Assembly: GCA_900314605.1 (NCBI GenBank)
Contig: OMVX01000003.1
Location: 1 to 64,000 of the forward strand
Direction of reading: 5' to 3'
Origin: an uncultured Methanobrevibacter sp.
GTDB lineage: Archaea > Methanobacteriota > Methanobacteria > Methanobacteriales > Methanobacteriaceae
Length of the DNA stretch: 64,000 nucleotides
Made by a program: the position numbers and the translations under genes. The notes under the pieces were generated by a model. It ran no database searches. It saw nothing but the letters and a program-made list of their open reading frames with translations, and was not told the origin of the DNA. Of this stretch, positions 52,128 through 57,320 are shown piece by piece. Within the stretch, counting starts at the first letter, position 1. Every line of letters begins with the position of its first letter.

Positions 52128-53423
52128 ATGGAGGTTATGGCATCTGCACCTGGAAAAACAATCTTATTTGGAGAACATGCTGTTGTATATAGCCAACCTG
52201 CAATTGCAGCGGCTGTTAGCAAAAGAGCAATAGTTCATATTAAAGATACTCAATCAAATAAAACTATATTAAAATCTGAAGATTTAGGCTTTGAAGCAGA
52301 ATTAGATACAAAAAATAAGAAATATATTTTAAAAAAAGGTAAACCAGGTATAATCAGATATATTTTAGAGGCCTTACATATAGCTCATAATCATAATCCT
52401 ATTGAAATCACATTATCTATTGATATTCCAATAGGTTCTGGATTAGGTTCTTCTGCAGCTGTAACTGTTGCAACATTAGCTGCACTATATCGATATCATA
52501 ACATTTATTTCACTAAAAAAGAATTAGCTGAAATAGCTCATCAAGTTGAATTTAATGTTCAAGGTGAAGCAAGCCCTTTAGATACATTAATTTCTACTTA
52601 TGGCGGATTAATATACCTTGACCGTAATAAAGAACTTCATAAAATTAATGCTCATATTAATGCACCATTTGTTGTAGGAGTTACAAGTAAATATGGAAGT
52701 ACCAGTAAGATGGTTAAAGGTGTAAAACTTTTAAAAGAACGTTTTCCAAAGGTTATGGATCCTGTTATTGAAACAATAGGTGATTTAACTGATGAGGCAA
52801 AAACTGCTATTGAAAAAGGCAATATTAATAAAATTGGAGAGTTAATGAATATTAATCACGGTTTGTTAGATGCTATTGGAGTAAATACTAAAGAATTATC
52901 TCGTATGGTTTATATTGCAAGAGGTGCTGGAGCAATTGGTTCAAAAATAACTGGTGCTGGAGGTGGTGGAAGTATTATTTCATTATGTCCAGGTAAAGTT
53001 GATGATGTTTCAAATGCTATTGGTGTGTATGATTCAACAATAAAACTTACATTCTCTAAAAAAGGAGTTACATCTAAATTAATTGGTGCTAGAAATATAA
53101 ATAATTACGGTAAAAATAATAGAAAAAATAATCCTAATAGTAACTACAATAATAACAATAATCCCAATAACAACAATAATAACAATAATAATAAAAAATA
53201 TCCTACTAAATATACAAATACAAATTCTAAAAAATCTAATTTTGTAAATAACAATAACTCTTCAGCTAGCAATTCACGAAATATTGAAAAAAGAGTAAAT
53301 AATGTCAAATCAAACAATAATAACAAATCTAAAATTAAAAATAATAATAAAGATAATAAGAAATTTTACCAAAATCAAAATGCTCAACCAATAAAAAATA
53401 ATAGAAAAGACTATGCTCGTTAA
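52128..53423 (+). CDS. mvk: Mevalonate kinase with Asn-rich C-terminal extension
   Basis: A 431-residue protein. Residues 1 to about 324 are a complete GHMP kinase: MEVMASAPGKTILFGEHAVVY, IPIGSGLGSSAAVTVATLAA (phosphate loop), and GAGAIGSKITGAGGGGSIISL. It makes mevalonate-5-phosphate for archaeal lipid precursors. Archaeal mevalonate kinases usually end near here. Instead about 107 residues follow that are nearly all Asn, Lys, Ser, Arg, Pro and Tyr, with runs such as NNNNNPNNNNNNNNNKK, encoded by AAC/AAT repeats. The tail is basic and must be disordered. GGGAG precedes ATG 52128. Isoprenoid partner genes ipk, fni and idsA follow. Confidence 0.93.
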   Translation: MEVMASAPGKTILFGEHAVVYSQPAIAAAVSKRAIVHIKDTQSNKTILKSEDLGFEAELDTKNKKYILKKGKPGIIRYILEALHIAHNHNPIEITLSIDIPIGSGLGSSAAVTVATLAALYRYHNIYFTKKELAEIAHQVEFNVQGEASPLDTLISTYGGLIYLDRNKELHKINAHINAPFVVGVTSKYGSTSKMVKGVKLLKERFPKVMDPVIETIGDLTDEAKTAIEKGNINKIGELMNINHGLLDAIGVNTKELSRMVYIARGAGAIGSKITGAGGGGSIISLCPGKVDDVSNAIGVYDSTIKLTFSKKGVTSKLIGARNINNYGKNNRKNNPNSNYNNNNNPNNNNNNNNNKKYPTKYTNTNSKKSNFVNNNNSSASNSRNIEKRVNNVKSNNNNKSKIKNNNKDNKKFYQNQNAQPIKNNRKDYAR

Positions 53424-53424
53424 T

Positions 53425-53580
53425 TAATAGAAAATAATGTTAACAATAGTTTTGATTTTTGATTAAATTTAATAATGTATGTTTAATAGTTAATAGAAAA
53501 TAATGTTAACAATAGTTTTGATTTTTGATTAAATTTAATAATGTATGTTTAATAGTTAATAGAAAAATAATGTTAACAAG
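53425..53580 (+). repeat. 66-bp tandem repeats between mvk and ipk
   Basis: Two identical 66-base copies (53425-53490 and 53491-53556) begin TAATAGAAAATAATGTTAAC. A third partial copy runs from 53557 to about 53580 with one inserted A. The repeat starts two bases after the mvk stop and runs up to the ipk ribosome-binding site. Confidence 0.9.
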
Positions 53581-53593
53581 AGTAGGTGTTAAA

Positions 53594-54409
53594 ATGATTA
53601 TTCTTAAAATAGGAGGAAGTATAATTACTGAGAAGGATTCAAAAGAACCTAAAGTTGATTATAAAAATCTTAACAGAATATGTAATGAAATCAAAGAATC
53701 TTTTTCAACAGAAAATATTAATGCAGATTTAATGGATGGTTTAGTAATAGTACATGGTGCAGGTTCATTTGGTCATCCTCCTGCAAGTGAATATAAAATC
53801 GGTCAGCCATTTCCAAATGAGGAATTTCCAGAAAAACGAATAGGTTTTGCTAAAACCCAGAGTGCTGTAAAAGAATTAAATACTTATGTATGTAATGCTT
53901 TAATTGAACATGGTCTTCCAGCAGTAAGTATGCAGGTATCATCATTTGTAACTACTTCTGATAAAAGGATATATGATTTTGATTTAGAATTCATTAAAAA
54001 TTATTTAAACAATGGTTTTATTCCAGTATTATATGGAGATCCTGTTCTTGATGAAAAATATAAAATGGCTATCTTATCAGGTGATCAGATTCTTCAATAT
54101 ATAGCAAGATTTTTAGTATCAGATAGAGTTGTACTTGGAACCGATGTTGATGGTGTTTATGATAAGAATCCTAAAACACATGATGATGCAAAATTAATTG
54201 AAGAGGTCAGTTCCATTGAAGAGATTATACAGGTAGAATCAACAACTAATATAGATGTTACAGGGGGTATGGTTGGAAAAGTTAATGAACTTTTATCTCT
54301 TGCAGAAATTGGTGTTGATTCAGAAATAATTAATGCTAATCGTCCAGGTGCAATTGGTGATGCATTACAAAATAAAAAGGTTAAAGGAACTAAAATCACT
54401 AAAAAATAG
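53594..54409 (+). CDS. ipk: Isopentenyl phosphate kinase
   Basis: A 271-residue amino-acid-kinase fold protein with ILKIGGSIITEKDSKEPKVD, VIVHGAGSFGHPPASEYKIG (its His is the family's catalytic residue), and LGTDVDGVYDKNP. It converts isopentenyl phosphate to isopentenyl diphosphate in the archaeal mevalonate pathway. ATG 53594 follows AGGTG; an upstream extension runs only through the 66-base repeats. Confidence 0.94.
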   Translation: MIILKIGGSIITEKDSKEPKVDYKNLNRICNEIKESFSTENINADLMDGLVIVHGAGSFGHPPASEYKIGQPFPNEEFPEKRIGFAKTQSAVKELNTYVCNALIEHGLPAVSMQVSSFVTTSDKRIYDFDLEFIKNYLNNGFIPVLYGDPVLDEKYKMAILSGDQILQYIARFLVSDRVVLGTDVDGVYDKNPKTHDDAKLIEEVSSIEEIIQVESTTNIDVTGGMVGKVNELLSLAEIGVDSEIINANRPGAIGDALQNKKVKGTKITKK

Positions 54410-54500: not shown

Positions 54501-54953
54501 ATGGATAAAAAAAGGATTATTATAATATTACTAATTATAATCTGTATTTTATTAAGCTGTATTTTATATCAGACATTTTTATCTCCAAAAGCAAATTATG
54601 TTACTTCTATTGATAATGTAACTTTTAATACAACATTTAAGACAGATTTTAAATTACATAATGAAACTGAAGGTTGGAAATATTATTTAAGTGAAACTAA
54701 AGATGAGAGATATACTCTTTCAATATGTGATTCCGATACAATAGGTAACGAACTATTTTATCTATTAAACTGCCCTTCACAGACAATAAATGGAATAGTA
54801 ATATACACTGGCACTGCAAACACAGGACAACACATCGGAGAACCCACATATGTAGCAGTCATAGAGAACAAAGATATAGGTAAAGGAGTAAAAATAGGCT
54901 CATCTGATCCAAAAGAAACAGCAAAGATGGCTTCATCCTTAAAATTTAGTTAA
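54501..54953 (+). CDS. Small secreted or membrane-anchored protein, unknown function
   Basis: A 150-residue protein. Lys-rich start MDKKR, then one long hydrophobic helix (about 5-26), then an exported domain of about 120 residues with a repeated theme of beta strands (VTSIDNVTFNTTF, YTLSICDSDTIGNELFYLL). A Cys follows the helix region in LLSCILYQTF, but it lies within the membrane segment, so lipidation is doubtful. I do not recognise the family. GGAAGTG precedes the start. Confidence 0.65.
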   Translation: MDKKRIIIILLIIICILLSCILYQTFLSPKANYVTSIDNVTFNTTFKTDFKLHNETEGWKYYLSETKDERYTLSICDSDTIGNELFYLLNCPSQTINGIVIYTGTANTGQHIGEPTYVAVIENKDIGKGVKIGSSDPKETAKMASSLKFS

Positions 54954-55221: not shown

Positions 55222-55500
55222 TTAAAATATATTAGTATCTTTAAAAACTACTGCACTTGATTTAATATCATTATGGAATGGACATAAACAGGTTACTTTA
55301 TTCCCATAATCTTTTACAGTTTCTACTCCATAATATCTTATAATATCTAACATATTCTTATTAGTTGAATTTTTATATCTTCTATTTTGTATTATCTTTT
55401 TTTGCTTTAATAATTGTTTATCATATTTAGTTTTAGCTATTTTATTATCAAGATGTTTTAAATTATTTGTAAAATCATCTGTACTTATATATTTGTCCAT
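55222..55500 (-). CDS. CHC2-type zinc-finger primase fragment
   Basis: A 92-residue frame. After a charged helical N-terminus (DKQLLKQKKIIQNRRYKNS) it reads IIRYYGVETVKDYGNKVTCLCPFHNDIKSSAVVFKDTN, which is the CHC2 zinc-binding motif of DnaG-like primases (C-x-C-P-F-H). It then stops where the remainder of the domain and the TOPRIM domain should begin. It is probably the stump of a plasmid or virus replication gene. Its ATG overlaps the end of another truncated frame upstream. Confidence 0.5.
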   Translation of the reverse strand: MDKYISTDDFTNNLKHLDNKIAKTKYDKQLLKQKKIIQNRRYKNSTNKNMLDIIRYYGVETVKDYGNKVTCLCPFHNDIKSSAVVFKDTNIF

Positions 55501-56264: not shown

Positions 56265-57320
56265 ATGATTCAAAATAGGAAATTAGAACATCTTAATATT
56301 TGTAATGAAAAGGATGTTGCTTATAAAAAGTCAACAGGATTTGAAAATATAGAATTTGTTCACAGAGCTCTTTGTGAAGTTAATAAATCAGATATTAATA
56401 TTTCAACATATGTTTTTTCTAAAAAATTAGATTCTCCTTTATTTATTTCAGCTATTACTGGAGGTCATCCTTTTGCTGAAAAAATCAATAAAGAATTAGC
56501 TATTGTTGCAGAAGAATTTAATATTGGATTTGGTCTTGGTAGTCAAAGGGCAGGTATTGAACATTCTGAATTAGCTTCAACCTATACTGTTGCACGTCAA
56601 TATGCTCCAAATGCTTTACTTGTTGGTAATATTGGTGCTCCTCAAATGGAACTTGCAGATAGTGCAGTTGATATGATTGATGCAGATATTTTAGCTATTC
56701 ATTTAAATCCTCTTCAGGAGTCTATTCAGCCAGGTGGTGATTTAGATGCTAAAGGTTTTATTGATTCTATTGAAGAGATATCTAATTCAGTTAATGTTCC
56801 TGTAATGGTTAAAGAAACAGGTGCAGGCATTTCTTATGAAGATGCAATTGCACTTCAAAAAGCAGGTGTTTCATATATAGATATTGAAGGAGCTGGTGGT
56901 ACTAGCTGGGCAGCTGTTGAAACTTATCGTTCAGAAGATAAATATTTAGGTTATGAATTTTGGGATTGGGGAATACCTACTGCAATAAGTACTGCAGAAG
57001 TGTGTTCTACTGTTGATATTCCAGTTATATCTTCTGGAGGTATACGTTCTGGTTTAGAAGCTGCAAAAGCTATTGCTTTAGGGGCAGATGCTGTTGGTAT
57101 GGCTTTACCATTTTTAAAAGCAGCTTATTTAGGTCATGATAATATTATTAATTTAATCCATAATTTTAATGAATCTTTAAAATTAGCCATGTTTTTAGTT
57201 GGAGCTGAAACTATTGATGATTTAAAGAAGGTTCCACTTGTTATTAAAGGAGAAGCTAAAGAGTGGCTAGAAAGTAGGGGATTTAATACAAAAATTTATA
57301 GTAGGAGGAAAGAATTTTGA
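56265..57320 (+). CDS. fni: Isopentenyl-diphosphate delta-isomerase, type 2 (FMN)
   Basis: A 351-residue TIM-barrel flavoprotein with [15 protein letters not shown] at the start, [44 protein letters not shown], and [23 protein letters not shown] in the FMN phosphate site. It interconverts IPP and DMAPP. Its stop overlaps the RNase J start (57317), so the two are co-translated. Confidence 0.94.

Follow-up and report, generated by a model that had tools for sequence, protein, structure and literature searches.

An open reading frame at 52128-53423 (+) of the window, i.e., the whole 64,000-nucleotide stretch of Methanobrevibacter DNA analysed here, encodes 431 residues (ATG to TAA) and appears, judging from its sequence, to be a complete and catalytically ordinary archaeal-type mevalonate kinase (MVK) with an additional C-terminal extension. 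What is conserved in this extension is a long, basic tail, predicted to be disordered, whose short terminal stretch is fixed; it is present in all four species examined of one genus, to which Mbb. wolinii and Mbb. boviskoreani probably belong. There is about an even chance that it represents a selectively maintained polycationic C-terminal tether, gained once in the ancestor of this genus-level clade, whereas a serious rival, nearly as good an explanation, is that these very AT-rich genomes tolerate the expansion of A-rich DNA.

The kinase core and its tail

The features of the locus are as follows (IPK, isopentenyl phosphate kinase):

52128..53078 (+): mevalonate kinase core (GHMP kinase), residues 1-317; TIGR00549, Pfam and PDB matches, motifs
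53079..53420 (+): Asn/Lys-rich disordered basic tail, residues 318-431; in 4/4 species of the genus, not in other genera; AlphaFold2
53166..53192 (+): run of nine Asn with mixed AAT/AAC codons; from the sequence
53391..53420 (+): conserved C-terminal decapeptide IKNNRKDYAR; 4-6/10 identity between two subclades
53424..53583 (+): 66-bp tandem duplication in the MVK-IPK spacer; 2.4 copies, the first two identical
53584..53588 (+): Shine-Dalgarno-like AGGTG of the IPK gene; from the sequence
53594..54409 (+): IPK by pathway context, amino acid kinase family, tail-less; Pfam AA_kinase 3e-45

The family model, Pfam domains, solved structures, and motifs all agree with the initial annotation of this protein as a mevalonate kinase. 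The core scores 273.4 bits against the TIGR00549 family model (curated cut-off, 163), matches both GHMP_kinases_N and GHMP_kinases_C, and keeps all family motifs intact in the MVK alignment (PGK, GEH, PIGSGLGSSAA, ASPLDT, and TGAGGGG), including D152 (in ASPLD152T), which we take to be a catalytic residue. Residues 3-305 match the PDB mevalonate kinases 8TEB, 6MDE, and 4HAC with E-values of ~1e-59. Archaeal MVK structures (4HAC and 6MDE from Methanosarcina mazei, 8TEB, and 1KKH from M. jannaschii) share the GHMP core and catalytic motifs with the window protein, whereas their chains of 303-324 residues stop at the core and have no comparable tail. A search of genome contigs for MVK relatives returned only a weak, unrelated locus. 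In the MVK of genome G002 (L005), three residues (IAA/AIA) are missing around residues 25-28, where the N-terminal sequence is otherwise conserved.

The start of the tail was set by tail-less homologues, which end at residue 317-320 of the window protein or a few residues later. The extra part previously described on this frame is indeed absent from these homologues, but it begins slightly earlier (53079, around residue 318; 114 residues) than had been proposed (53100, with the core ending near residue 324). It contains 46 Asn, 23 Lys or Arg, and 3 Asp or Glu (net charge +20), and its best 40-residue window is 57% Asn, compared with 30% for the runner-up ORF in the 64-kb window. Instead of several nine-Asn runs, as originally reported, there is a single run of nine, the others being shorter. 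AlphaFold2 gave pLDDT values below 50 (about 26-36) and no secondary structure over residues 321-431, in a run based on an alignment of only ten sequences in which parts of the core were low too, and a charge-hydropathy plot also predicted disorder for all four tails, consistent with the earlier description of a disordered, basic, low-complexity segment.

The tail had also been called prion-like. Prion-like domains are commonly recognized by a content of at least 30 Q/N per 80 residues, a level that is reached in the best 80 residues of the window protein (38) and of its G002 orthologue (31) but is not conserved in the other two species (18 and 23); accordingly, two of the four tails are Asn-dominated and two Lys-dominated. 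A condensate-forming, Q/N-rich prion-like domain is quite improbable: the first two proteins and their scattered Tyr residues speak for it, but the Lys-dominated tails do not, and the high net charge should work against self-association. Q/N-rich prion-like domains have been surveyed previously (PMC3654983), and N-rich low-complexity domains show higher per-residue occupancy in eukaryotes than in archaea (PMC11132505). The window protein is likewise very Asn-rich; however, the genus does not conserve Asn richness, and what its members share is positive charge and low hydrophobicity.

Distribution and sequence evolution of the tail

In the four species of the genus, whose cores are 76-83% identical to that of the window protein, the tails comprise 114, 145, 93, and 96 residues with net charges of +20, +32, +24, and +25, respectively. 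The MVK gene was detected in 131 of 139 genomes of the family, and open frames of 410-465 residues occur in exactly these four species, whereas no comparable frame was found in the other 127 genomes (maximum 361 residues, a figure that counts upstream codons; a few of the 127 are fragments). Comparison of tail presence and length across relatives, as suggested in the initial annotation, thus yields 93-145 residues in 4/4 species of the genus and 0/127 elsewhere in the family. The claim that such a tail is unusual in archaea holds within the family (4/131 genomes, all in one genus), with archaea at large being thinly sampled. A literature search found no paper on a tail of archaeal mevalonate kinase.

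It had been considered that an assembly error might have removed an earlier stop codon. An artefact of this kind, or a lost stop codon, is hardly credible: although the low-complexity DNA adjoins an exact 66-bp tandem duplication, tails are also present in the independent assemblies of three further species, which excludes an assembly error, none of the tails has an in-frame stop, and their end is conserved. The four diverged tails contain 31-50 stops in the +2 frame and 2-8 in the +1 frame, so single-base indels would truncate the tail at once. For the window tail, zero in-frame stops compare with 37 in the +2 frame and ~10.6 expected from shuffles, and none of 1000 simulated intergenic stretches of tail length stayed open. 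The open tail frame is therefore more than chance. Paralogous spread of the tail was also rejected, since the window tail, when searched against four genomes of the genus, matched only itself, and the DY[AS][RN] ending was found nowhere else among the ORFs of genome G001, being unique to MVK.

Among the four species, pN/pS was 0.69-1.16 in the tail (rough values, as tail alignments are uncertain) versus 0.17-0.33 in the core, and aligned tails are 27-50% identical, compared with 76-95% for the cores. The last ten residues, which follow the pattern NN[RK]xDY[AS], are better preserved, with 4-6 of 10 positions identical between the two subclades versus 0-4 in seven upstream ten-residue blocks. 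Part of this end is also constrained by the IPK Shine-Dalgarno sequence (AGG TGA) in L006 and L007 (the MVKs of the two other tailed species), whereas in the window genome (G000) and G002 the end is free of this overlap and DYA is still kept.

Compared with second-order simulations of G001 intergenic DNA, the tails are depleted in hydrophobic residues (z -6.5 to -8.5) and enriched in Asn (z 2.3 to 10.5), and Lys plus Arg is enriched in three of the four species (z 3.1-3.9). Against the tail's own A-rich base composition, hydrophobic residues are still depleted (z -3.5 to -4.6); net charge is as expected (z -0.5 to 1.5), suggesting that AAN codons may account for the positive charge with no selection acting on charge itself.

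Origin of the tail and parallel expansions

In a tree of MVK cores, the four species form one clade (100/99) that is sister to g5+g6 (95/91), two other genera of the family. In g5, g6, L006, and L007, the IPK gene starts only ~3-13 nt after the MVK stop, and in L006 and L007 the final codons and stop of MVK overlap with the IPK Shine-Dalgarno sequence (AGG TGA N4 start). In G000 and G002, ~170 and ~60 nt, respectively, separate the MVK stop from the IPK start; none of the spacers in the other three species showed the 66-bp tandem duplication of the window. The simplest reading of these sequences is that the common ancestor had a tight MVK-IPK junction and that longer spacers arose later, in the G000/G002 branch. 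Since this tight arrangement is common to g5/g6 and L006/L007, an in-frame insertion or expansion shortly before the final codons probably produced the tail, and the loss of a stop codon running into AT-rich spacer is disfavoured, although spacers of up to several hundred nucleotides in more distant genera leave room for such an origin.

The junction also bears on a possible role at the RNA level, in which the A-rich 3' end of the MVK message, unstructured and covered by ribosomes, would lead into the IPK gene and couple translation to it, the peptide being incidental. Such coupling would need an open frame, and the Shine-Dalgarno overlap in L006/L007 fits it; nevertheless, we consider this role improbable, as g5 and g6, the sister genera, combine an equally tight junction with a tail-less MVK, and G000 and G002 have kept both tail and decapeptide despite their more distant stops.

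Slippage, which had been suggested as the source of the sequence, is unlikely for the tail as a whole. Among eight arrays of at least seven AAY codons in the genome, the MVK run alone mixes AAT and AAC, whereas the other seven are pure (AAT)n (the three inspected all lie outside long ORFs), and recent (AAT)n slippage was rejected on this basis. A Borg-type amino-acid tandem repeat was rejected as well, since perfect unit repeats are absent and the tail region has only imperfect 9- and 12-bp periodicities (69-83% matches). The amino-acid tandem repeats carried by Borg elements of Methanoperedens archaea (PMC9879509) resemble the MVK tail in their A-enriched DNA, their location in fast-evolving disordered ends or linkers, and the sparing of the core domain; however, they are perfect unit repeats on extrachromosomal elements, whereas the tail is irregular and chromosomal.

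Within the G001 sample (1.84 of about 2.0 Mb, 92%; 1221 ORFs), the MVK tail has the highest net charge (+26) among low-hydrophobicity 80-residue windows, followed by a glycosyltransferase and then by ribosomal proteins and a Nop5-like protein (read from sequence). In the window's own genome (15% sampled), no segment is richer in Asn, but other proteins are more basic, exceeding the MVK net charge per 80 residues (16). The basic disordered tail of the Nop5-like protein (C21:46632 of G001) is similar to the MVK tail in composition, charge, and C-terminal position; unlike the basic tails of RNA-binding proteins, the MVK tail belongs to a metabolic kinase that gives no further hint of binding RNA.

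In all four species of the genus, the two domains of a glycosyltransferase (GT2 plus family-1 domain; L202:7420-9504, orthologues L229-L231) are joined by an Asn-rich, basic linker that is 143-239 residues long and has a net charge of +26 to +32; in seven outgroup genomes the linker measures 81-101 residues and is near neutral (net -1 to +7). Such segments have thus been gained by two or more proteins of the clade, and this parallel expansion makes a lineage-wide tendency to expand them likely, as opposed to an MVK-specific role. In a VWA-domain protein, whose linker was extracted for the four genus members only, open frames are alike in length across genera and no expansion was found. An Rrp4-like exosome subunit was rejected as a third case because its tail charge varies both ways, from +12 in G001 to -102 in a genome of g10, another genus of the family. 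In the latter, the protein (L246) ends in a tail of 220 residues, and the tail in G001 is mildly basic.

Candidate functions and gene neighbourhood

Under the tether reading, the ancestor of one genus-level clade would have gained, once, a disordered polycationic tail on an ordinary MVK, with A-rich DNA inserted or expanded in frame upstream of the last codons and the old MVK-stop/IPK-start junction left intact. Selection would act mainly on bulk properties, namely disorder and positive charge, and the tail, taking no part in catalysis, would tether the kinase electrostatically and with low specificity to a polyanion; RNA or ribosomes would be the first candidate target and an anionic membrane surface the second. 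Judged by composition and company, weak electrostatic tethering to RNA, ribosomes, or membrane is the best-supported candidate function. The genus-wide presence (4/4 species versus none of the other family genomes with the gene), the open frame, the depletion of hydrophobic residues, the predicted disorder, the kept decapeptide, and the top charge rank in G001 argue for it, and it is weakened by a charge no higher than A-rich composition predicts and by the more basic proteins of the window's own genome.

Tolerated, near-neutral expansion, to which we assign a real but less than even chance, would mean that the very AT-rich genomes in this clade let A-rich DNA expand where protein ends and linkers are permissive and already disordered, and that selection removes only stops, frameshifts, and sticky hydrophobic segments, leaving a tail without positive function. 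The enlarged, basic glycosyltransferase linker of the genus, its low GC content (24.2% in G001 and 28% in the window), the low coding density of published genomes of the Mbb. wolinii clade (PMC6120340), a charge equal to the A-rich codon expectation, and the variable tail length are all consistent with this possibility. On the other hand, no tail loss has occurred among four diverged species, the decapeptide is conserved, hydrophobic residues are depleted even relative to the tail's own base composition, and the MVK tail ranks first in G001 for such a segment. The glycosyltransferase expansion can be used by both the tether and the tolerated-expansion views.

It is conceivable, though rather unlikely, that the core isoprenoid enzyme of this clade is now RNA- or ribosome-associated or membrane-tethered via its new tail, within a clade-wide acquisition that includes the glycosyltransferase, and that lipid-precursor synthesis is spatially organised. 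Here, the gain of a long disordered segment by a core archaeal enzyme is bracketed phylogenetically, the untailed sister genera serving as natural controls, and selection for bulk charge and disorder can be tested against a tolerated by-product of extreme AT-richness. Binding of the tail to RNA or membranes, if real, would demonstrate spatial control of isoprenoid synthesis in an archaeon.

The neighbourhood is that of the mevalonate pathway: MVK is followed by the gene at 53594-54409, identified as IPK by pathway context, and by an FMN-dependent enzyme at 56265-57320, which by context is IDI-2. Between IPK and the next mevalonate gene, 54501-54953 encodes a 150-residue protein without a Pfam match that has an N-terminal hydrophobic segment. 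A 92-residue ORF on the opposite strand, at 55222-55500 (-), weakly matches the CHC2/DnaG zinc ribbon (E 8e-4, short of the curated cut-off) and is possibly what is left of a primase-like gene within the mevalonate cluster.
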